NCBI GenBank assembly: GCA_000635015.1
Contig: JFMR01000047.1
Location: forward strand, 1-64,000
From: Prochlorococcus sp. scB243_498I20
GTDB taxonomy: Bacteria > Cyanobacteriota > Cyanobacteriia > PCC-6307 > Cyanobiaceae
Reading direction: 5' to 3'
DNA length: 64,000 bases
The position numbers and the translations under genes are program-made. The notes under the pieces were generated by a model. The model saw nothing but the letters and a program-made list of their open reading frames with translations. It did no database searches and was not told where the DNA came from. Shown here piece after piece: positions 896 through 20,408 of this stretch. Each line of letters opens with the position of its first letter. The stretch's first letter is position 1.

Positions 896-1903
896 ATGTC
901 TTCATATATAAAGCTAAAAGGAAGGGGAGTTAACAGGATAATTACGAGTAAGGTCATGCTATCGCCATTAGCAGGAGTTACAGATAACATTTTTAGGCGA
1001 CTTGTACGTAAATGGGCTCCAAACTCTTTACTTTTTACAGAAATGATAAATGCCACAAGCCTTAAAAAAGGATTTGGAACACAAAAAATCAATCAAATAG
1101 AATTAGAAGAAGGTCCAATTGGAGTACAAATATTTGATAATAGACCATATGCTGTTTCTGAAGCCGCGAAACAAGCTGAGGACTCGGGAGCATTCTTAAT
1201 TGATATTAATATGGGATGTCCAGTAAAAAAAATTGCAAAGAAAGGTGGAGGTAGTGCCTTAATAAAAGACCGAAAACTTGCTTTAGAATTAATCATAAAA
1301 GCAGTAAAAGCTGTTAAGGTTCCAGTAACAGTAAAAACAAGACTCGGATGGGATAGTAAAGAAGAAAATATAGAAGATTTCTTATTTAAACTTCAAGATG
1401 CGGGAGCAACTATGATCACACTTCATGGAAGAACTAGAAAACAGGGTTTTTCAGGCAAGTCAGATTGGGAAATGATCGGGAGAATTAAAAAGTTGTTGGA
1501 AATTCCAGTAATTGCTAATGGAGATATCAAAAATCCAGATGACGCTATTAATTGTTTAAAAAAAACAAATGCTGATGGGGTAATGGTTGGACGAGGGATT
1601 TTAGGTTCCCCATGGAAAATAGGAGAAATAGATTATGCCATTAGAGAAAATAAAAATTTTAAAGAACCAAACACAGAAGAAAAACTATATTTAATAATTG
1701 AGCATCTTGATGAATTAATAAAAGAAAAAGGAGATCACGGCTTGCTAATTGCAAGGAAACATATCTCATGGACATGTAAAGACTTTAAAGGAGCATCAAA
1801 TTTGAGAAATAACTTGGTTAGAGCTGTTGATAAAAATGAAGTTAAAAATTTAATAATTAAAATGATTAAAACTTTGAATAATGAAAAAAATACATTAGCT
1901 TAG
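896..1903 (+). CDS. dus: tRNA-dihydrouridine synthase
   Basis: A 335-residue TIM-barrel flavoenzyme of the Dus family, which reduces uridines in the tRNA D-loop using FMN and NADPH. The N-terminal MLSPLAGVTD segment (residues 21-30) is the FMN-binding start of the barrel, and the INMGCPV motif carries the conserved active-site cysteine (C108). Length is normal for the family. The start at 896 gives a 20-residue lead before the barrel; the ATG at 956 would also be workable. The gene opens a short + strand run with the DUF2470 gene 18 bp downstream. Bacterial cyanobacteria usually have one such enzyme; I cannot tell DusA from DusB position specificity. Confidence 0.92.
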   Translation: MSSYIKLKGRGVNRIITSKVMLSPLAGVTDNIFRRLVRKWAPNSLLFTEMINATSLKKGFGTQKINQIELEEGPIGVQIFDNRPYAVSEAAKQAEDSGAFLIDINMGCPVKKIAKKGGGSALIKDRKLALELIIKAVKAVKVPVTVKTRLGWDSKEENIEDFLFKLQDAGATMITLHGRTRKQGFSGKSDWEMIGRIKKLLEIPVIANGDIKNPDDAINCLKKTNADGVMVGRGILGSPWKIGEIDYAIRENKNFKEPNTEEKLYLIIEHLDELIKEKGDHGLLIARKHISWTCKDFKGASNLRNNLVRAVDKNEVKNLIIKMIKTLNNEKNTLA

Positions 1904-1921
1904 AACAAATTTATTTTTATA

Positions 1922-2179
1922 ATGAAAATTATTAGTAAAGAGACAAGTAAAAGAGTTTGTGATCATATGAATAATGATCACATTGATTCGGTTCACAAAT
2001 ATCTTATTCATTATGGGAAGATATCAAGATTTGAGAATGCTTATATGGAAGAAATTAATAACAGTTATATAAAAATTAATTACGATGGCCAGTCAGCAAT
2101 TATCAATTTTAAAAATGAAATATCTGAAGAAGAAATTCATTCAACTTTAGTATCAATGATTAAAGAAATTAAAAAATAA
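1922..2179 (+). CDS. DUF2470 protein
   Basis: An 85-residue protein built almost entirely of one DUF2470 domain: the N-terminal helix carries the family pattern CDHMNNDH (residues 13-20) followed by a beta-sheet region. In other proteins this domain sits at the C-terminus of HugZ-like heme oxygenases and related flavin/heme-binding split barrels. Standing alone it may bind a tetrapyrrole or act as a partner, which is inference. It lies 18 bp after the dus gene on the same strand and is probably co-transcribed. Confidence 0.75.
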   Translation: MKIISKETSKRVCDHMNNDHIDSVHKYLIHYGKISRFENAYMEEINNSYIKINYDGQSAIINFKNEISEEEIHSTLVSMIKEIKK

Positions 2180-2198
2180 AATAATTTATAAAAAAATT

Positions 2199-2363
2199 CT
2201 AATTTTTATTTTCATAGTAGTCAGTTATTTTTTTACATTCTTCAAAAGAAAGCATGCTTAACCTAGATGTGGCTTTTATTTTTAGAATTGCACAAACAGC
2301 TAATAAATCAGAGCTATCAACATTAAGTGCTTCAGAAAGTTCTAGGACCCTAAGACCTTTCAT
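2199..2363 (-). CDS. free-standing IF2_N-like mini-protein (54 aa)
   Basis: A short gene with an ATG at 2361-2363 and a TAG at 2199. Its product begins MKGLRVLELSEALNVDSSDL and continues into a second helix containing a Ser-Met-Leu-Ser turn before the Glu-Glu-Cys-Lys-Lys-Ile helix. This matches the pattern of the small N-terminal domain of bacterial initiation factor IF2 (IF2_N: RVYELAKELGV-S-S-K-E-L ... SSLSEED). In IF2 the domain is an appendage to the GTPase; here it forms the whole protein. It lies 42 bp downstream of the secreted protein gene at 2406-2645 on the same strand. Whether it touches the ribosome or nucleic acid is unknown. Confidence 0.65.
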   Translation of the reverse strand: MKGLRVLELSEALNVDSSDLLAVCAILKIKATSRLSMLSFEECKKITDYYENKN

Positions 2364-2405
2364 TAGTATTAAAAAATTATTTCTACATTATCAAGAACCT
2401 TTAAA

Positions 2406-2645
2406 TCAATGGGCTGCATTTTTCCCTAAACCTGCAACGAATGGAAAAGTTTGTTCATCTCCAAATATATCTTCTACCGAAGAACTAGAAATATTAGTTT
2501 TTTTATTATTATCAGGCTTAATTTCTTCAATTTCATTAGAAATATTATCTTTAAAATTATTTTCAATTTCCTTTGCTAATAAATTATTCGTATTAGAAAA
2601 TATTGAAAAAACTAATACACATAAAAACAAAATAATTCTTTTCAT
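2406..2645 (-). CDS. small secreted protein of unknown function
   Basis: A 79-residue product with an N-terminal signal peptide (MKRIILFLCVLVFSIF, cleavage probably near the Leu-Leu-Ala at residues 22-24). An acidic, Asn-rich linker follows, and the C-terminus is distinctive: EDIFGDEQTFPFVAGLGKNA. A conserved-looking C-terminal block behind a low-complexity spacer suggests a peptide-sized partner or lipid-surface role in the lumen or periplasm, but the function is not known. ATG at 2643-2645. The overlapping + strand frame (2254-2694) is not coding. Confidence 0.65.
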   Translation of the reverse strand: MKRIILFLCVLVFSIFSNTNNLLAKEIENNFKDNISNEIEEIKPDNNKKTNISSSSVEDIFGDEQTFPFVAGLGKNAAH

Positions 2646-2746
2646 AAAAAAAATTTATATAGTACTATTGTTATATGCCAATAGAGTTATTTAGAAAAAC
2701 TAGATAATTTTAAAACAAATCTATATAAATCAAAATCAAAAAATAT

Positions 2747-2983
2747 TCATCTTCCCAACTTATTTCTATTTTTAAATCTAATTAAAAAATAAAGACCTAG
2801 TAACAAAAGAATTGCTAAGGAGTACTGATTAAGAAAAGCATAAACCATATAGACGAGAAAGGGGAATAAGCACGCCCTCTTGAGATTTAATTTCTGTTCC
2901 TTTGACATATTTTTCCAATTTAAATATTCTTCCCATTGAAAAATCTTCTTCATTTTTCTACTTCTATTTTTACGATTAAACAT
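2747..2983 (-). CDS. small two-span membrane protein
   Basis: A 78-residue protein with a basic N-terminus, an amphipathic Trp-containing segment (about residues 15-35) and two hydrophobic spans at roughly 36-52 and 54-69. The chosen start is the ATG at 2981-2983; a second ATG ten codons later (2951-2953) would give a protein beginning MKKIFQW. No family recognised. Confidence 0.55.
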   Translation of the reverse strand: MFNRKNRSRKMKKIFQWEEYLNWKNMSKEQKLNLKRACLFPFLVYMVYAFLNQYSLAILLLLGLYFLIRFKNRNKLGR

Positions 2984-3088
2984 AAATTTATAAATATAGT
3001 TTTGATGATTCTTATGTTAATAAATAAAATTAATTTACAATATCAAAATAAGTTTTTTCATTGAATAAAAATATTTTTTAAATAAAAG

Positions 3089-3508
3089 ATGAACTCAAAA
3101 CCAGTTTGGAAAACAGAAAAAATTGTTTTACCTCAACATGTAGATCATGCAGGCGTAATGTGGCACGGTAAATATTTTAATTGGCTTGAAGAAAGCCGAA
3201 TAAATGCACTTTTAGAAGTAGGTATAAGTTATTTCGAACTAACTAAAAATGGCTTAGATTTACCTTTAATCAATACTTCAATAAAATATAAATCTCCTTT
3301 ATTGCTCGGTGAAGAAATAACAATCGAGAGCGAATTCAATATTGATAAAAGTCCTAGAATTAATGTGATTTCAAAATTTCATAACAAGAAAAATGAAATC
3401 TTAACGATTGCTGAAGTAAATTTAGTCTTAATAAATAAAATGAATTTTTCTATAATAAGAAAAAGGCCAGATTTCCTATCGGAAGCTTTTAGTAAATTAA
3501 ACGGTTGA
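3089..3508 (+). CDS. hot-dog acyl-CoA thioesterase (4HBT family)
   Basis: A 139-residue single hot-dog domain protein. The VDHAGVMWHGKYFNWLEE stretch (residues 18-35) is the signature of the 4-hydroxybenzoyl-CoA thioesterase / YbgC family, with D19 in the position of the catalytic acid. In cyanobacteria one member of this family hydrolyses 1,4-dihydroxy-2-naphthoyl-CoA in phylloquinone synthesis; that specific role is plausible here but cannot be shown from sequence alone. Length and start (ATG at 3089) fit the family. Confidence 0.82.
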   Translation: MNSKPVWKTEKIVLPQHVDHAGVMWHGKYFNWLEESRINALLEVGISYFELTKNGLDLPLINTSIKYKSPLLLGEEITIESEFNIDKSPRINVISKFHNKKNEILTIAEVNLVLINKMNFSIIRKRPDFLSEAFSKLNG

Positions 3509-3542
3509 AATTATTATCCGCCAATTGAACGATTTATTAATT

Positions 3543-3740
3543 ATGAATATATTTCAAGTTATTGATTCTTATCAATATGAAATGGAATCAAGATATCAAG
3601 AAAAATCAATGCTCACAAATCTTTTTACAGAGCACAAATTTATAGGATGGTTAGGGTTGTTTATAGTATTTTTCTCTATCTTTGCAATTTTTGTTTTTCA
3701 ATTTCTTGAGTGGGAAAGTAATGACAATAATAAAAGTTAA
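3543..3740 (+). CDS. small single-span membrane protein
   Basis: A 65-residue product read from the ATG at 3543; a TTG at 3525 in the same frame would add six residues. It has a polar N-terminal half rich in Glu, Tyr and Gln, one hydrophobic span near residues 36-54, and a short acidic/Asn tail. It lies between the thioesterase gene and the gene at 3781, all on the + strand. No family recognised. Confidence 0.55.
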   Translation: MNIFQVIDSYQYEMESRYQEKSMLTNLFTEHKFIGWLGLFIVFFSIFAIFVFQFLEWESNDNNKS

Positions 3741-3780
3741 GAAGATTTAATGCTTATAATTCAACTGAATGACTTAAAAA

Positions 3781-4032
3781 ATGGCTATCTACTTAAAAAT
3801 AACTAACCCTACAGAGGTTGTAAAAAAAAAGACCTCAAAATGGCTTACAGATATTACACCTGAAAGAATTGATAGAAAATTGGTAGAGGATGAAGTAATA
3901 AAAGGCATTATCGAGCAATTAACATTAGAAGGCATAAAAGGAGAAATATCAGCAATTAATGGGTTTGAAGTAAATGAATCTTCAGTAATAACAAAAAATA
4001 ATTTTGTTATTAGAAAAACAAAAACTTTTTAG
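3781..4032 (+). CDS. conserved-looking protein of unknown function
   Basis: An 83-residue soluble protein beginning MAIYLKITNPTEVV. It has a basic N-terminal third with Lys-Lys-Lys and Trp, an acidic helix (residues 32-50) and a C-terminal beta-like region. There is no signal peptide, membrane span or cysteine, and the family is not recognised. It is 20 bp upstream of the Mrr-like nuclease gene in the same direction, so the two may be co-transcribed, but nothing in its sequence says it is a nuclease partner. Confidence 0.55.
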   Translation: MAIYLKITNPTEVVKKKTSKWLTDITPERIDRKLVEDEVIKGIIEQLTLEGIKGEISAINGFEVNESSVITKNNFVIRKTKTF

Positions 4033-4052
4033 ATAGAAAATAAAAATCGTTA

Positions 4053-4919
4053 ATGAAAATTTTTATTTTAATAATATTTATTATTTTTTTTATTTTTATA
4101 ATTGTAAGGAATTATCAAATTAAAAAGAAAAAGTACAAATTAAATAATGCTTTAAATTCCAATTTATTTATTCAAACAATTAATAATTTAATAGAAGAAA
4201 ACAAATACAATTTGTTAGAAGAAAGGATCAGATTAAGGGAAATAGATGCTTACGGCAACGAGGATTATAAAAAATGGATTGGCAATCCACCTCTTGATGA
4301 AAAAGCTATAGAAAAAAATATATTTAATGGATCTAAGCGATTTAAAGAGGGAATTCCATACTTTTGGGAAAAGGTAATTTTAAAAAAATTTGGGAGTATG
4401 GAATTATTTTTTGAAAAGTGGAGATCGTATTGTAATGAAAATCCTACTATTGATGATGAGATTATTGGATCGATTAGAAAGCTTGAAACTGAAGATTGGT
4501 TTGTATTCATAGCAAGTCAAATAGAGAAATCATGTTTAAACCTAATAGAAAAAAATTACTCAAGTAAAAACAAGGAAAACTACAAAAAAGGTATTAGATT
4601 TGAAAATCATTGTATGGAAATTCTCAAACAAAATGGCTGGGGAGTAAAAGAAACCCCTAATACAGGAGATCAAGGGGTTGACCTAATTGCGTCAATAAAT
4701 GATTTGAGAATATGTATTCAATGCAAAGATCATGAAAAAGCTATTGGAAATAAAGCAGTTCAGGAAATTTCAGCTGGTAAATTATTTTGGAAAGGTACAC
4801 ATGCCATAATAGTCTCAAAATCTGGCTTCACAAAGTCTGCGTATCAACTAGCAAAATCAAATAAAGTGAAACTAATCAATGAATATCAATTAAAAGATTT
4901 AGAAAAGTTTATTGTTTAA
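4053..4919 (+). CDS. membrane-anchored Mrr-type restriction endonuclease-like protein
   Basis: A 288-residue protein with a strong N-terminal transmembrane helix (residues 2-18) followed by a Lys-rich stop, a helical middle region, and from about residue 177 an Mrr_cat (restriction endonuclease-like) domain. The catalytic PD-(D/E)xK layout is visible: Glu184 in the first helix, Asp210 in GDQGVDLI, and Gln223-x-Lys225 in CIQCK. Mrr-family proteins cut DNA, often modified DNA. No methyltransferase or specificity gene is nearby, so this is not a classical restriction-modification pair. Membrane tethering suggests it acts on DNA at the envelope, for example entering DNA, which is inference. Confidence 0.8.
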   Translation: MKIFILIIFIIFFIFIIVRNYQIKKKKYKLNNALNSNLFIQTINNLIEENKYNLLEERIRLREIDAYGNEDYKKWIGNPPLDEKAIEKNIFNGSKRFKEGIPYFWEKVILKKFGSMELFFEKWRSYCNENPTIDDEIIGSIRKLETEDWFVFIASQIEKSCLNLIEKNYSSKNKENYKKGIRFENHCMEILKQNGWGVKETPNTGDQGVDLIASINDLRICIQCKDHEKAIGNKAVQEISAGKLFWKGTHAIIVSKSGFTKSAYQLAKSNKVKLINEYQLKDLEKFIV

Positions 4920-14220: not shown

Positions 14221-15006
14221 TTATTTGCGAAGTTTAGGAATCAAAAGAGATGCGACACAAATAACACTAATTGCAGGTCCTGGCGACAAATTAAAGACTA
14301 TAGAGAGAATAAAGCCCAGAAGTGAGATGCATAACCCAAAAAATGAAGACCTCATCATTGCAACTCTTAAACTATGAGCCTTATTTAGCCCTAACAGAGT
14401 TGGGGTAGAAAGAAGAGCAATAACAAGAATTACTCCCACTGCTGACATTGAACTAACAATTACTAATGCAGTTGTAAAACTCAAAGCAAGATTTAATAAA
14501 GAAACGTTTATACCACTCGCGGATGCACCTTCTGGATCCAATCCCACATAAACAACCTTTTCATATCCAAAAGTCATTAAAAGTATAAATACTAAAAAAG
14601 CAATTATTGTTCTAAGTAAATCTCCAAAATTTGCTGTCAATAAATCGCCAAATAATACTGCCTCCAAATCAATCCTTATTCCGAGTAAAGGGATTATAAG
14701 GACCCCAAATCCAAGCATTCCAGCGAGAATAGTATTCATAACTGCTTCATAATTTTCACTTTTTCTATTAGTTAAACTTTCCGCAATTACTGAGCCCAGA
14801 AGACCACTTACAACACCACCAATTGAGGGGTGAATTCCAAGCGCTAATGCGAGAGCAAGTCCAGGCAACACACAATGAGAGATTAAATTAACTTGTAATA
14901 ATCTCTTATGAGTGATTAATACAGTTCCCATAGCTGGGCATAAAATCCCGGAGAATATAGTTATTATTAATGGAACCAGCCACCAGTTGTTATTAATAAA
15001 AGACAT
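14221..15006 (-). CDS. znuB: zinc ABC transporter permease ZnuB
   Basis: A 261-residue inner-membrane permease of the ABC-3 (zinc/manganese) family with about eight hydrophobic spans. The GILCPAMGTVLITHKRLLQVNLISHCVLPGLALA-type segment (residues 20-53) and the Asp-Pro-Glu-Gly-Ala-x-A-x-G loop (residues 158-166) are typical. It pairs with ZnuC (ATPase) and ZnuA (binding protein), both encoded within 3 kb. It is separated from znuC by the zur gene, which runs the other way. Assigned to zinc, and not to manganese, from the neighbours. Confidence 0.9.
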   Translation of the reverse strand: MSFINNNWWLVPLIITIFSGILCPAMGTVLITHKRLLQVNLISHCVLPGLALALALGIHPSIGGVVSGLLGSVIAESLTNRKSENYEAVMNTILAGMLGFGVLIIPLLGIRIDLEAVLFGDLLTANFGDLLRTIIAFLVFILLMTFGYEKVVYVGLDPEGASASGINVSLLNLALSFTTALVIVSSMSAVGVILVIALLSTPTLLGLNKAHSLRVAMMRSSFFGLCISLLGFILSIVFNLSPGPAISVICVASLLIPKLRK

Positions 15007-15023: not shown

Positions 15024-15458
15024 ATGATCAAAAATACGGGACAAAAAAAGATTTCGGAAACAATGGTAACTAAGTCTGACATTACCAAAAGACAAGAACA
15101 ACTTCTTGAAGAACTTAATAAATGTGAGGATGAATTGACTGGTCAAGAGTTGCATAGACAATTGATAGAAAGCGGAAAGGCTATGGGACTGACGACTGTT
15201 TACAGGAATCTTCAAGTTCTTATAAAGCATGGCTTAATACGTTCTAGGCATCTCCCAACTGGAGAGGTTCTGTACACTCCCGTAGATAGAGATATTCATC
15301 ATTTGACCTGTGTTCAATGTGGTGAGACATCAAAAATGGAAGGATGCCCGGTAAAAGATATACATACACCCAAAACAAATCCAAAGAAATTCCAATTGTT
15401 GTTTCATACCCTCGAATATTTCGGGCTTTGCCAAAACTGTTATCAAGCTCAGAATTAA
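15024..15458 (+). CDS. zur: Zur, zinc-responsive Fur-family repressor
   Basis: A 144-residue Fur-family regulator. The winged helix covers about residues 17-85, with the recognition helix near LTTVYRNLQVL, and two CxxC pairs (C96-C99 and C136-C139) hold the structural zinc in the dimerisation domain. The name Zur, not Fur or PerR, follows from its place between znuB and znuC and a Fur-type box before znuA; the family alone does not decide the metal. The ATG at 15024 is only 17 bp from znuB; an ATG at 15063 would drop 13 poorly conserved residues and leave more room for a promoter. Confidence 0.88.
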   Translation: MIKNTGQKKISETMVTKSDITKRQEQLLEELNKCEDELTGQELHRQLIESGKAMGLTTVYRNLQVLIKHGLIRSRHLPTGEVLYTPVDRDIHHLTCVQCGETSKMEGCPVKDIHTPKTNPKKFQLLFHTLEYFGLCQNCYQAQN

Positions 15459-15471
15459 AAAGGAACATTCT

Positions 15472-16242
15472 CTAATCACAGAAATTATTTTCGTTTATAG
15501 AGCTAATGTTTAATGCCTTTAATTTATCTTGTATTTGGTCAGGACTACCAACTGCCAAAACACTTTTATCAAGAACGATTACTTGATCATAGTTATTTAA
15601 AGAATCGCCCCAATCATGGCTACTTACGAGCAAAGAAAGTCCGGCATCGGCAAGTTGACGAACAATTTTAAGAAAATCCTCCTTTGCAGGTGGGTCCAAA
15701 GCTGCACAAGGTTCATCTAAAAGAAATATTTTTGCCGGGGACATAAGAGTTTTTGCTAATAGAGCTCTTTGCTGTTGTCCTCCTGAAAGAGAATCGAGTC
15801 TCCTATTCGCCAAACTTGCAATGCCTACTCTCTGCATTGTCGCCTCTAATTCACAACATTTATTAATCCAAGAATTAGGATAAGCTAGAAGAGTCTTAAT
15901 TTGAAATGGGTTATTACTTCTTGATTTTGAATACTTTATTTGACCAAGAGATACCAATTTTTCAACTGTGATGGGGAACTTCCAATTCATAGAACTTCTT
16001 TGAGGCATAAGTGCCACAAGAGCTCTAGATCTATATAAATTTTCACCATCAATTTTTATTTCGCCTTTATCTGGAGTATTTTGTCCTTGCAAAATTCTCA
16101 AAAGAGTTGATTTACCTGCGCCATTTGGGCCAACTAACGCTGTTAGAGTTCCAGGTTTAATCTCAACCGATACCTTATTCAAAACTGGCTTACTTTTTTT
16201 TGCGTATGCAAAGGTTAAATTTTCAGCGACTAAAGTAGCCAT
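15472..16242 (-). CDS. znuC: zinc ABC transporter ATP-binding protein ZnuC
   Basis: A 256-residue ABC ATPase: Walker A GPNGAGKST (38-46), Q-loop QRSS (81-84), signature LSGGQQQR (152-159) and Walker B FLLDEP (173-178). It powers zinc import through ZnuB. The gene diverges from znuA, with 136 bp between them holding a Fur/Zur-type palindrome and a second inverted repeat, so both directions may answer to zinc. It converges with zur, with 13 bp between the stops. Confidence 0.93.
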   Translation of the reverse strand: MATLVAENLTFAYAKKSKPVLNKVSVEIKPGTLTALVGPNGAGKSTLLRILQGQNTPDKGEIKIDGENLYRSRALVALMPQRSSMNWKFPITVEKLVSLGQIKYSKSRSNNPFQIKTLLAYPNSWINKCCELEATMQRVGIASLANRRLDSLSGGQQQRALLAKTLMSPAKIFLLDEPCAALDPPAKEDFLKIVRQLADAGLSLLVSSHDWGDSLNNYDQVIVLDKSVLAVGSPDQIQDKLKALNISSINENNFCD

Positions 16243-16303: not shown

Positions 16304-16340
16304 TTGATAACATTTGATACCTTCACTTGTCAGAGATAAT

Positions 16341-16359
16341 GAAAATGATTATCATTTTT
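16341..16359. promoter_or_regulatory. Fur/Zur-type box before znuA
   Basis: AAAATGAT-T-ATCATTTT (16342-16358) is a perfect 8-1-8 palindrome, and the 19 bases from 16341 match the classic Fur box GATAATGATAATCATTATC at 15 of 19 positions. It lies 20 bp upstream of the znuA start codon, where a bound repressor would block the promoter. With zur adjacent it is most likely a Zur operator. It may control znuC as well. Confidence 0.75.
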
Positions 16360-16378
16360 AAGTATTTAATTATTTTTT

Positions 16379-17920
16379 ATGTCAATTTTTAAAAGACTTT
16401 TAACAAATAAAAAAGGTTCGAGTAAGTCAATTATTAAAATTTCCGTAATCGCAGGAACAATTATATTTTCTGGTTTTGGGCAGGATGTTATGGCTAAAGG
16501 AAAGTCATATGTAGCAGTAGAACCACTAGTTTGTGATTTAGTTAAATCAATTGCATTACCATCTGACGAAGTTACATGCTTAGTAGAAAGAAAACAAGAT
16601 GTTCATGATTTAAAGATCAATCCAAGACAAGCTCAATTACTAAATAGCGCAGATAAAGTATTTACTCTTGGTAAAGAAATGACTCCAAGTATGAGAAATT
16701 GGGAGAATAAAAAGAATACGGTTGTTGTAGGTGTTAGTGCAATAGACGTAGATGATCATTCTGATCATGGAGGTCATGATGATCACTCAGACCATGGTGG
16801 ACATGACGATCATTCTGAACATTCAGCTAAAGTAGATGATCATTCTGATCATGGAGGTCATGATGATCATTCAGACCATGGAGGACATGATGATCATGCT
16901 GAAGGTGCTTTCGAATGGGCAGGCAAATTTCAACTTTCTAAGGGTTCTTACAAATGGTCATTTGAAAAAGTCGATGGCGAATATGCAGATCCTGCAATGA
17001 AGATGGTGATTCTCAAATCTAATGACATAGAAGGGTCTGAAGATTTAGCTAAAGAATTATTAGGATCTAAAGACTCAATAAGCAGAAAAAATGATGGTAC
17101 TTTGATAGCAAGTAATAAAGCTTTTGTTCTTAACTTTGATCAAAGAAAAGAAAGTACTGTTTTTAACGTGGATATCAAAGAAGATGGTCAATATATATTT
17201 TTTACTGAACACATGCCTTTTGAGTTTGAAGCAACTCAACACTTTTTTAAAGACGTTTCAAATAGTGATGTAGAACCAATAGCACAAGTTCCAGACGAAA
17301 GTGAGGGGCATCATCATCATGATCATGGAGGTCTAGATCCACATGTATGGCATGATCCGCATAACATCATAAAAATGGGAGATCTTATAAGCAAAAGTTT
17401 AAAGAAAGATATTTCAGTTTTTAATAGAGGTGACAGAAAACTAATTAATGAAAGATTCGAAAAAGCTGATTCTCTCTTAGAAGGCTTAGATAGTTGGATC
17501 GTCGAACAAGTAAGTTCTATTCCTGAGGAAAACAGAGTAATTGTCTCTAAACACAAAGCAATGGAATATTACGGGGATGCATTTGGTTTTGAAACCATTA
17601 GTTTACTTGACTTTCTTGGAGACTCCTCAAGCTTAAGGCCAGACAACATAAGTTCTACTTTAAAAATGTTAGATGAAGAGAAAGTTCAGGCAATATTTCC
17701 TGAACAAATTCCAGCATCTAAGTTATTAAGGAACTTAAGTAGACAAAGTTCAGTTCCTTTAGCTTCTAATCAAATATTCGTTGATGGATTGATGATGGAT
17801 GGTAATACGGTTTCAGTAGCTGTTCACAATACTTGTACAATTGTTGATTCATTAGGTGGAAGCTGTGATAAAGAATCTGGCTCCAATCTTGAGTCTGAAT
17901 GGTACAAACTTTCAGATTAA
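16379..17920 (+). CDS. znuA: zinc-binding protein ZnuA with a large inserted domain
   Basis: A 513-residue periplasmic zinc-binding protein (usual length about 300-330). It has a hydrophobic N-terminal leader (about residues 18-36, then Met-Ala-Lys). Expected zinc ligands are H76, H322 or H325 (in LDPHVWHDPHN) and H392. Between the first lobe's start and the H322 region sit two extra parts: a His/Asp-rich run (residues 125-177) with DDHSDHGGH units, which could collect zinc, and a beta-rich domain of about 120 residues (178-295) with FEWAGKFQL at its start and FTEHMPFEF near its end. That second domain also appears in the CobW GTPase encoded next door. Start ATG at 16379 follows the Zur box. 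Confidence 0.9.
   Translation: MSIFKRLLTNKKGSSKSIIKISVIAGTIIFSGFGQDVMAKGKSYVAVEPLVCDLVKSIALPSDEVTCLVERKQDVHDLKINPRQAQLLNSADKVFTLGKEMTPSMRNWENKKNTVVVGVSAIDVDDHSDHGGHDDHSDHGGHDDHSEHSAKVDDHSDHGGHDDHSDHGGHDDHAEGAFEWAGKFQLSKGSYKWSFEKVDGEYADPAMKMVILKSNDIEGSEDLAKELLGSKDSISRKNDGTLIASNKAFVLNFDQRKESTVFNVDIKEDGQYIFFTEHMPFEFEATQHFFKDVSNSDVEPIAQVPDESEGHHHHDHGGLDPHVWHDPHNIIKMGDLISKSLKKDISVFNRGDRKLINERFEKADSLLEGLDSWIVEQVSSIPEENRVIVSKHKAMEYYGDAFGFETISLLDFLGDSSSLRPDNISSTLKMLDEEKVQAIFPEQIPASKLLRNLSRQSSVPLASNQIFVDGLMMDGNTVSVAVHNTCTIVDSLGGSCDKESGSNLESEWYKLSD
16748..16901 (+). repeat. 84-bp duplication in the His-rich loop of znuA
   Basis: A 70-bp sequence starting GTAGATGATCATTC at 16748 recurs at 16832 with three differences, all silent third-base changes (period 84 bp, 28 codons). 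Within each copy a shorter 27-bp HSDHGGHDD-type unit is repeated. The high identity points to recent expansion; the number of histidines in this loop is probably variable among strains. Confidence 0.85.
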
Positions 17921-17997
17921 ATTTTTCTAATAAAAACGGTTTTCATTTCTTATTATTACTATTATTAAACTATTGTTTATTTAGTAAAAATCAGTAA

Positions 17998-19347
17998 ATG
18001 AGCATCAAAGATAAAGTTCCCGTAACCATCCTCACTGGATTCTTAGGTTCAGGGAAGACTACTTTGCTTAATAGAATTTTAAGTGAAGAGCACGGGAAAA
18101 GAATAGCCGTAATTGAGAATGAATACGGCGAAGTAGGTATAGATCAAGGTCTCGTAATTAATGCCGATGAAGAAGTGTTTGAGATGTCAAACGGGTGCAT
18201 TTGTTGTACTGTTCGCGGTGATTTAATAAGAGTCCTTGGCAACCTTATGAAAAGAAGAGATAAGTTTGACTATGTTTTAGTAGAAACAACAGGATTAGCA
18301 GATCCAGGCCCAGTTGCTCAGACTTTTTTCATGGATGAAGAGATTAGTTCTGAATTTACTCTTGATGGAATTGTGACTTTAGTTGATGCTGCACATATTG
18401 ATCAACAGCTAGGCAGGAGTGACGAAAGTTCAGAACAAGTGGCATTTGCAGATGTTCTTGTCCTTAATAAAACTGATTTAGTCTCTGATGATGCATTAGA
18501 TACCCTTGAATCAAGATTGAGAGATATGAATCGAATGACTCGCATTATTAGAGCCGAGAATGCCAAAGTACCAATTGAAACAGTCTTAAATCTAAGTGCA
18601 TTTGATCTCGATCAGATCCTTAAACGCAGACCAACATTTCTTGAACCAGAATATCCTTTTGAATGGACGGGTGTTTACGATCTAGATGCAGGTAAATATG
18701 AATTAATGCTAGAAGAAGGACCCGATCCAGAAATGTCCCTAGTAGCTCTCATTAATCAAGGTGAGAGTGAGGAAGAACTTAAAGATGGTGCTGAATCCTC
18801 CGTAAGACTTTATGCAGAAAATGCTAATACTTTAGATCCTGGAAATACTGTCCCATATGGAGAACATGTAAATCTAAAATTGGAGGATAAAGGAAATAAA
18901 TCCTTCATCCTTAACATAGAAAAGCCAACAAAAATAGGTTTGTTTACACAGCACACTGCTGAAGAATTTAATATGAAAGTCATTAAAAGTGACGAAAATA
19001 AAGAGATTCCATTTAATACTGAAAGGTTCTGGCAAGCAGAGCATGAACATGATGATGAAGTAGGCTCAATTGCCATAGAGCGTTTTGGAGATGTTGACCC
19101 AGAAAAACTAAATACTTGGATGGGAAGGCTTCTCTCAGAAAAAGGGGTGGATATATTCAGAACTAAAGGTTTCATAAGTTACTCAGGCAACCCAAGGCGA
19201 ATAGTTTTCCAGGGGGTACACATGTTATTTACTGCACAACCTGACAAAGAATGGGGTAACGAACCTCGTAGAAATCAACTTGTTTTTATCGGTAGAAATC
19301 TAAATGAGAAAGAGATGCAAGAAGGCTTTGATAAATGCCTGATATAG
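17998..19347 (+). CDS. CobW/COG0523 metallochaperone GTPase with inserted domain
   Basis: A 449-residue GTPase. Walker A GFLGSGKTT is at residues 14-22, the family metal motif NGCICC has C67, C69 and C70, and the NKTD guanine motif follows further on; a CobW_C domain occupies about residues 345-449. COG0523 GTPases with this gene context deliver zinc to client proteins. Residues 218-335 are an extra domain, starting FEWTGVYDL and ending near FTQHTAEEF, that matches the one inserted in ZnuA in the order FEW-x-G, DP-x-M, FT-x-H and EF. A short His/Glu run (HEHDD) follows it. The gene is 77 bp after znuA and overlaps the WD40 gene by 13 bp, so the three are probably one operon. Confidence 0.88.
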   Translation: MSIKDKVPVTILTGFLGSGKTTLLNRILSEEHGKRIAVIENEYGEVGIDQGLVINADEEVFEMSNGCICCTVRGDLIRVLGNLMKRRDKFDYVLVETTGLADPGPVAQTFFMDEEISSEFTLDGIVTLVDAAHIDQQLGRSDESSEQVAFADVLVLNKTDLVSDDALDTLESRLRDMNRMTRIIRAENAKVPIETVLNLSAFDLDQILKRRPTFLEPEYPFEWTGVYDLDAGKYELMLEEGPDPEMSLVALINQGESEEELKDGAESSVRLYAENANTLDPGNTVPYGEHVNLKLEDKGNKSFILNIEKPTKIGLFTQHTAEEFNMKVIKSDENKEIPFNTERFWQAEHEHDDEVGSIAIERFGDVDPEKLNTWMGRLLSEKGVDIFRTKGFISYSGNPRRIVFQGVHMLFTAQPDKEWGNEPRRNQLVFIGRNLNEKEMQEGFDKCLI

Positions 19348-20408
19348 AACCATTTAGCCCAAGAGGCATGTTCCATGAAGGATGGACAGCTGAAGTTAAC
19401 GATTATGCCATTGCATGTGGCTGGGCTCTTAAAGGTAAACAATTTATTGTTGGAGACGTGGCAGGAGGTCTTTTTGCATTCGAAGGAGATACTGGAAAAA
19501 TTATTTGGAAAAAAGAAAATACACACTCTGGTGGTTTACTAGCAATGGCAATTCATCCAGAGGGTGAAATTTTTGCAACATCAGGTCAGGATGGAAATGT
19601 TCAAATTTGTAATTGTCACGAAGGTAAAGTAATTAAAACTCTTGATCTTGGTAAGGGTTGGGTAGAACACCTCAAGTGGTCTAATGACGGTTTATTTCTA
19701 GCCATAGCTTCATCAAAAAAGGTATATGTTTTTAATGAAGTTGGTGAAGAAAAATGGATCTCAGAAGACCACCCAAGCACTGTGAGTGCAATAACATGGT
19801 CAAATAAAAATGAACTAGCTACTGCTTGCTACGGAAGAGTGACATTCTTTGACATAGTTAATAATAAAACTAATCAAAAACTCGAGTGGCAAGGATCATT
19901 GGTATCAATGGAATTAAGTCCTGATGGAGATATAGTTGCCTGTGGGAGTCAAGACAATTCAGTTCATTTTTGGAGAAGATCAACCGGAATGGATGCTGAA
20001 ATGACAGGATACCCTGGTAAACCAAGTCATCTTTCTTTTGATGACAGTGGAAAATTATTAGCAACTAGTGGCAGTGAAAGAATTACAGTTTGGAGCTTTA
20101 TAGGAAATGGTCCAGAAGGAACTATGCCAGGAGAGCTATGTCACCATACAGAGCCCATTTCAAGCCTAGCCTTTTCAAATAAAGGTATGCTCGTAGCCTC
20201 AGGATCTAGGGATGGTTCTGTTGTCGCAAGTTTCCTAAAGAATGATGGCAATGGAGATCCAGTTGGGGCTGCATTCGCTGGAGATTTAGTAGGGGCAATA
20301 TCATGGAGACCTGATGATTGTGCACTTGCAGCAGTTAATGCAAAAGGCGTTGTAAATGTATGGAAATTTAAAGTTCGTACTAACCTTTTTTCAAAGGGAT
20401 TTAAGTAA
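19335..20408 (+). CDS. WD40-repeat protein of the zinc operon
   Basis: A 357-residue protein made of WD40-type repeats (about seven blades; repeat ends such as GQDGNVQICN, SQDNSVHFW, SGSERITVW and SRDGSVVAS are visible). No signal peptide, so it is cytoplasmic. Such beta-propellers hold protein complexes together and have no known catalytic role. It overlaps the CobW GTPase gene by 13 bp, so it is probably translated with it. A role in zinc delivery by scaffolding the GTPase and its clients is inferred from this coupling. Confidence 0.8.
   Translation: MPDIEPFSPRGMFHEGWTAEVNDYAIACGWALKGKQFIVGDVAGGLFAFEGDTGKIIWKKENTHSGGLLAMAIHPEGEIFATSGQDGNVQICNCHEGKVIKTLDLGKGWVEHLKWSNDGLFLAIASSKKVYVFNEVGEEKWISEDHPSTVSAITWSNKNELATACYGRVTFFDIVNNKTNQKLEWQGSLVSMELSPDGDIVACGSQDNSVHFWRRSTGMDAEMTGYPGKPSHLSFDDSGKLLATSGSERITVWSFIGNGPEGTMPGELCHHTEPISSLAFSNKGMLVASGSRDGSVVASFLKNDGNGDPVGAAFAGDLVGAISWRPDDCALAAVNAKGVVNVWKFKVRTNLFSKGFK

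Follow-up and report, generated by a model that had tools for sequence, protein, structure and literature searches.

A domain shared by ZnuA and a neighbouring COG0523 GTPase in a Prochlorococcus zinc gene cluster: a putative accessory metal-binding module

The ZinT domain of AdcA and the protein ZrgA are accessory zinc modules or chaperones of ATP-binding cassette (ABC) importers. In another system, AztD hands zinc to AztC (PMC6689063). The association of COG0523 GTPase genes with WD40-repeat genes, znuABC and Zur is already known from COG0523 subfamily 5: the available text of Haas et al. (2009) describes prokaryotic members as clustering with genes for WD40-repeat proteins and with znuABC, several of them behind predicted Zur sites; Prochlorococcus marinus is named among the cyanobacteria with COG0523 genes behind Zur sites; and the human COG0523 proteins fall in the same subfamily (PMC2770081). 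In Synechococcus WH8102, synw0970-0973 (znuC, znuA and two genes whose function is unknown) are described in the accessible part of the source as responding to zinc and Zur (PMC9337993). The cargo of COG0523 GTPases and the way in which they receive zinc are unsettled for most subfamilies. Here, we analysed a 64,000-nucleotide stretch (the window) of contig JFMR01000047.1 from Prochlorococcus sp. scB243_498I20, in which the ZnuA-type binding protein of a zinc importer and the COG0523 GTPase encoded beside it each contain a related domain of about 115 residues.

The first copy of the domain occupies ZnuA residues 177-292 (window positions 16907-17254, plus strand; profile match E 4.2e-42), flanked by two His-rich stretches. 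The second occupies residues 219-332 of the GTPase (18652-18993, plus strand; E 5.7e-50), between the GTPase domain and CobW_C. An initial annotation of the window had described related inserts at residues 178-295 and 218-335 of these two proteins; the profile limits are close to these, and the open reading frames (ORFs) and motifs are exactly as it gave them. The N-terminal motifs are FEWAG at 178 in ZnuA and FEWTG at 221 in the GTPase, then DPAM at 204 and DPEM at 243, followed in the C-terminal part by FTEH at 275 and FTQH at 316, and by PFEFE at 280 and EEFN at 322. When the whole proteins were compared by blastp, the domain region gave the only significant alignment (30.8 bits, E 8e-5, 34/115 identical), the next best having E 1.7, and phmmer gave E 2.3e-6 for the same pair, the E-values of both programs being calculated for a search of one sequence. 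The Smith-Waterman score was 79, against a shuffled mean of 29.4 (standard deviation 5.2), and none of 2000 shuffles scored as high. A comparison of profiles built from 25 ZnuA-type and 33 COG0523-type copies (hhalign), for which the initial annotation had looked to an E-value well below 1e-3, returned probability 97.2 and E 3.9e-11; among 60 column-shuffled controls the lowest E was 0.0075, and the reversed control gave E 0.22. In single-sequence searches, either copy retrieves the other family in many relatives, with E-values down to about 3e-5 and 2.7e-6. It is thus close to certain from these alignments that the two inserts are homologous, and chance resemblance is ruled out by the absence of any comparable score among the 2000 shuffles and by the profile E-value of 3.9e-11 versus 0.0075 after shuffling.

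The initial annotation had proposed to take a common predicted fold as a sign of true relationship and had known of no name for the domain. AlphaFold models the isolated ZnuA copy as a small beta-sandwich of nine strands and two short helices (predicted local distance difference test, pLDDT, 87.6; predicted template modelling score, pTM, 0.80), and in its model of the full COG0523 protein the elements come in the same order, although a short strand and the final short helix are reduced. The two models use partly shared alignments, so their agreement is support and not independent proof. The best Foldseek match had E 4.4e-3, the weak neighbours being GOLD, CBM35 and collagen-binding beta-sandwiches; VIA-align likewise indicated a weak resemblance (best Z 5.2 over 82 residues, root-mean-square deviation 3.8). 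This structural likeness lies below the level that would show kinship, and the GOLD and CBM35/collagen-binding domains have no sequence match to the window domain. Searches of PDB and viral structures with the domain model gave no match at E <1e-3. The domain is unnamed in the Pfam and NCBIfam copies searched: neither window copy, taken in isolation, matched a Pfam family even at E 5, NCBIfam gave 44 relatives a best E of 0.041 with none at the curated cut-off, and PDB sequence searches gave a best E of 0.37. The best Pfam match of the 44 relatives was DUF7055 (E 0.0015, 18.7 bits against a cut-off of 27.6), which we rejected as a name because the match covers 16 residues and falls below the cut-off. 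Annotators would gain a domain, unnamed in these database copies, from four kinds of protein.

To judge from sequence matches, the domain is widespread: many bacteria and archaea have it in proteins that handle metals, and the wider search that the initial annotation had suggested recovered it in four kinds of host: COG0523 GTPases, ZnuA-type proteins, haloarchaeal lipoprotein-like proteins and one Alicyclobacillus membrane protein. The GTPases come from many phyla and usually adjoin a WD40 gene; the ZnuA-type hosts belong to the window's family, Verrucomicrobiota, one Desulfobacteraceae metagenome-assembled genome (MAG) and haloarchaea. A scan of genome contigs with two motif patterns yielded 324 pattern matches, 293 of them relatives, of which the best 80 were kept. 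These 80 loci comprise 79 COG0523 GTPases and one ZnuA-type protein (L160, from the Desulfobacteraceae MAG), a mix that is biased because the confirming query was a COG0523 copy. A tblastn match to WD40 lies downstream in 73 of the 80; by a stricter count, a WD40 ORF lies within 400 bases of 67/79 GTPase ORFs, and 7 of the 12 misses have fewer than 500 bases of contig left. ZnuA-like ORFs were found in 28/80 loci, and among those found only that of L160 carries the domain; this search overlooked the divergent ZnuA of L161, which also carries it. L161 and L260 appear to be one contig (both 25539 bases, with the same genes). In L259 and L260, both from Verrucomicrobiota, COG0523, WD40, ZnuA, ZnuC and ZnuB stand in one row, and both the COG0523 protein and ZnuA contain the domain. 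Tandem double domains occur in two ZnuA proteins, L057 (ORF 2617-4455) and L068 (ORF 1218-3056), which may share one origin.

Plasmid records supplied the haloarchaeal zinc ABC binding proteins with the domain, three small His-rich haloarchaeal lipoprotein-like proteins, of which one adjoins urease accessory genes, the Alicyclobacillus membrane protein, and proteins of Pantoea agglomerans and Paraburkholderia annotated as GTP-binding. Pfam ZnuA matches were obtained for the domain-bearing proteins of two haloarchaeal plasmid records, of the Desulfobacteraceae MAG and of Verrucomicrobiota. One haloarchaeal ZnuA gene (L100, 5467-6183) has its frame broken within the domain, and a second domain copy lies at 64403-64759 of the same plasmid; a stand-alone haloarchaeal copy (L106, 4872-5423) lies directly 3' of urease accessory genes, which suggests a link to nickel too. 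The Alicyclobacillus membrane protein is encoded near cation-transporter genes, and its second half has a weak, below-cut-off match to Mntp (E 0.0034). Viral copies of the domain were searched for and none were found. The human COG0523 proteins are not known to carry this insert.

Within the window's order, 61/150 genomes have a match to a single COG0523 copy, and within its phylum 31/386 match the profile, 27 of the 31 being from the window's own family; many relatives therefore have no such domain. In that family the ZnuA-type copy is present in 22 of the 27 matching genomes, always together with a COG0523-type copy, and absent from the other 5. The cluster is not intact in every genome: the two types of copy are far apart in G036 and G049. 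The draft genome G478 has a single match, a ZnuA-type copy with no COG0523-type copy; haloarchaeal ZnuA-type copies also occur without one, in plasmid records. In one survey a COG0523-type copy was the single match in 20 of 24 GTPase-bearing genomes. Counts for four other phyla, each including a centre genome already known to carry the domain, were 1/247 (the phylum of G478), 2/299 (of G482), 12/201 (of G483) and 31/337 (of G500).

In trees of the domain, copies sort by the kind of host protein and not by genome, with two exceptions: lone haloarchaeal proteins stand beside haloarchaeal ZnuA-type copies, and the Alicyclobacillus copy switches sides between trees. In a first tree the window's ZnuA copy joins the Desulfobacteraceae copy (support 99/88), the two form one set with the haloarchaeal copies (100/93), and the COG0523-type copies stand apart (89/80). 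A second tree, to which a verrucomicrobial copy was added, groups the window's ZnuA copy with the verrucomicrobial ZnuA copy (99/93), long branches meeting among the ZnuA-type rows. It separates ZnuA-type from COG0523-type copies with support 96/81 and places Alicyclobacillus on the COG0523 side, so that C takes 2 changes in this tree. Forcing the window's ZnuA copy together with four picocyanobacterial COG0523 copies costs 28.4 log units, a borderline result by the approximately unbiased (AU) test (p 0.054). Because the ZnuA-type copy of the window clusters with copies of its own type, away from the COG0523-type ones, local copying within the operon is unlikely; we favour the view that two old domain lineages met here rather than arose by local duplication. 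Three COG0523 copies that group with picocyanobacterial ones (L221, L225 and L228) come from genomes of the G483 phylum, for which transfer or mixed bins are both possible.

Seven comparisons chosen from the genus of the window served to assess selection, and both domain copies are under purifying selection. The ratio of nonsynonymous to synonymous substitution rates (dN/dS) of the ZnuA copy is <0.09 and lies below that of the rest of ZnuA in all seven. In one relative's ZnuA (L066, ORF 824-2341), the domain is close to that of the window (dS 0.18) and the rest of the gene distant (1.08), which points to strains having recombined in the domain segment.

Seven residues, Glu179, Trp180, Gly182, Asp204, His278, Glu282 and Phe283 in ZnuA numbering, are invariant in 158/158 distinct full-length matches (E <1e-8, at least 95 profile positions), an invariance that the scan patterns could have forced in part and that 22 proteins with a His-rich loop and L236, found afterwards, break. 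The same seven positions are invariant in the 81 of the 158 that come from outside the scan set (one of these, L207, is a scan locus fetched again), and scan hits picked by one pattern alone kept the residues of the other in 53/53 and 15/15 cases. In the model they are found where strand 1 begins, immediately ahead of strand 3, and in the turn and helix that follow strand 8.

The proteins that break the pattern come from Verrucomicrobiota. Among 29 verrucomicrobial GTPases (L230-L258; the ORFs with a fetched locus, a set without the G1406 match and the second G1520 matches), 22 have a His-rich and often Cys-rich loop in place of the GPDPxM loop and have also lost the FTxHxPxEF motif; six of the remaining seven keep both motifs and L236 has neither. 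Across 116 COG0523 proteins, 92 have both motifs, 23 neither and one (L143) the second only, by a test that tolerated variants (such as GPDASI in L234); by eye, L143 reads GPDDPAM, with an extra Asp in the loop. A His-rich loop occupies the site of the first motif in 22 of the 23 motif-less proteins, with 8-20 His per 40 residues by one count and 9-24 by another. The joint absence of the motifs, with a His-rich loop in place, is the strongest pointer to function and indicates that they behave as one site for which such a loop can substitute.

On the strength of these patterns, we regard the domain as probably an accessory divalent-metal-binding module, serving zinc in this operon. It would hold one divalent metal ion, here zinc, by means of some of the residues Glu179, Asp204, His278 and Glu282 at an end of the sandwich. 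The ZnuA copy, set between His-rich stretches, may collect or hold zinc beside the transport site; the COG0523 copy, just before the HxHD motif, may retain zinc or pass it on next to the CxCC site. More tentatively, and with slightly less than even confidence, we suggest a portable zinc module that bacteria and archaea placed in several kinds of metal-handling protein on both sides of the membrane, whose site one lineage exchanged for a His-rich loop. In picocyanobacteria and Verrucomicrobiota, the capture protein of the importer and the intracellular GTPase of one operon would both use it, so that the uptake route would begin and end with the same type of zinc site. Such a module would offer a concrete handle: a small domain common to an importer binding protein and a GTPase of the same operon, with few invariant residues and a natural His-loop comparison.

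Several observations weigh against this interpretation. We infer metal binding from conservation and the natural replacement by a His-rich loop, and the invariant polar residues can be structural instead; that they lie close together at one end of the sandwich is deduced from the places of the strands in the model. The His-loop replacement is a single event on a quick GTPase tree (support 76), and L236 represents a second, separate loss of both motifs, with a loop less rich in His (5 His). The stretch before the domain in COG0523 proteins is His-poor (mean 0.2 per 30 residues), so that the His-rich frame is limited to exported and membrane proteins. Evolution is faster in the COG0523 copy than in the remainder of its GTPase (dN/dS 0.11-0.21 versus 0.02-0.04); several dS values in the seven comparisons exceed 1, near saturation, which makes those ratios rough. 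Finally, one lone haloarchaeal copy adjoins an operon for urease, a nickel enzyme, and zinc may therefore not be the metal in every case, and the weak structural neighbours do not indicate zinc.

Other explanations account for parts of the same evidence. The conserved end could bind another protein, which might be a component of the membrane, the WD40 protein or a further copy of the domain, with metal taking no direct part. The WD40 gene that usually follows domain-bearing GTPases (73/80 loci, or 67/79 ORFs within 400 bases) encodes a typical scaffold, and the weak fold neighbours, GOLD and carbohydrate-binding domains, bind partners or ligands. However, it is not evident what partner the GTPase in the cytoplasm, the exported ABC binding protein, the lipoprotein-like proteins and the membrane protein would share, and the His-rich loop at the same site in 22 of 23 motif-less proteins points to metal; we consider docking rather unlikely, yet a live rival. 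Of the roles that the initial annotation had offered for the insert, among them zinc contact, partner docking and the sensing of zinc state, zinc contact stands as the best reading of the sequence evidence. That the two copies must dock on each other is unlikely because they are expected on different sides of the membrane and each also occurs without the other.

What is bound might not be a bare ion but a small ligand that carries the metal, such as a chelator or metal complex. The fold recalls ligand-binding beta-sandwiches and the invariant Trp180 and Phe283 accompany the polar residues, but replacement by a His-rich loop fits a bare ion better, and we judge this improbable. Just as improbable, if not slightly more so, is a purely structural role, in which the domain would act as a spacer to place the His-rich loop and its invariant residues would hold the fold. 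His-rich stretches do frame the ZnuA domain, and invariant Gly, Trp and Phe are of a structural kind, yet the COG0523 copy has no His-rich stretch before it, and four invariant charged or His residues, three of them in motifs jointly absent from the His-loop clade, would be unusual for a spacer. Nothing speaks for chance beyond the modest identity, about 30%, of the single pair; many relatives are matched both by single sequences and by profiles, at scores that the shuffled controls do not approach, and we assign chance a negligible probability.

The genes around the two copies bear out the zinc operon context recognised by the initial annotation. A Zur box at 16340-16360 (plus strand), between znuC and znuA, has 0 mismatches to the published cyanobacterial consensus as given in the consulted part of PMC9337993 and is the window's sole match; as a control, 24 of 100 shuffled windows contained a match at ≤2 mismatches. 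Near it are a znuB-type permease gene (14221-15006, minus strand) and a znuC-type ATPase gene (15472-16242, minus strand, divergent from znuA), and between these a Fur-family regulator (15024-15458, plus strand; Pfam FUR 69.4 bits), which is probably Zur. The znuA-type gene (16379-17920, plus strand) encodes a metal-binding protein of an ABC importer of 513 amino acids, which matches Pfam ZnuA with 143 bits against a cut-off of 29; its N-terminus suggests that it is exported, and it contains the His motifs DVHD, DPHVWHDP and SKHKAM. Directly before the domain runs a His/Asp-rich repeat linker (16751-16903, plus strand; 15 His in 51 residues), and after it a second His-rich stretch, EGHHHHDHGGL (17303-17335, plus strand). 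The linker is highly variable across relatives (21-147 residues, 0-21 His): the part before the first domain copy contains 0 His in the double-copy proteins L057 and L068 and 3-21 in the other 23 matched proteins.

The COG0523 (CobW-type, G3E) GTPase gene (17998-19347, plus strand) encodes 449 amino acids with Pfam matches to cobW (206.9 bits, residues 8-184) and CobW_C (86 bits, residues 356-448), and the motifs of a G3E GTPase are present: Walker A GFLGSGKT, NKTD and GCICC. The GCICC metal motif is encoded at 18193-18207 (plus strand), and a short His motif after the domain, EHEHDD, at 19039-19056 (plus strand); the three Cys of the former and both His of the latter are invariant in 33 aligned proteins. 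A gene for a WD40-repeat protein (19335-20408, plus strand; Pfam WD40) overlaps the end of the COG0523 gene.

In comparison with described systems, the window shares with COG0523 subfamily 5 a WD40 gene, znuABC and a Zur site, a likeness that rests on gene neighbourhood; the inserted domain is a feature of the window that has no mention in the available text of PMC2770081. The literature that we searched, incompletely and partly from extracts, yielded no earlier mention of the domain, and we make no claim that it is absent from print. The layout of synw0970-0973 in Synechococcus WH8102, as described in the portion consulted, resembles that of the znuC, znuA, COG0523 and WD40 genes of the window. 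A predicted picocyanobacterial ZnuA cluster is, in the accessible part of a review, described as almost absent from Prochlorococcus (PMC8786288), and the window's ZnuA may belong to that cluster or to another. The diatom protein ZCRP-B was considered as a relative and dropped, being NikA-like according to the text available (PMC9010474). As for ZnuA proteins of cluster A-I, the window protein shares their Pfam match, His motifs and His-rich stretches and has znuB and znuC nearby; it differs by the 115-residue domain between the His-rich stretches, of which two relatives have two copies. The window domain has no Pfam match, and its predicted beta-sandwich is unlike the eight-bladed propeller of AztD; with AztD, ZrgA and the ZinT domain of AdcA it would nonetheless have in common the same idea, an extra zinc module that aids an importer.

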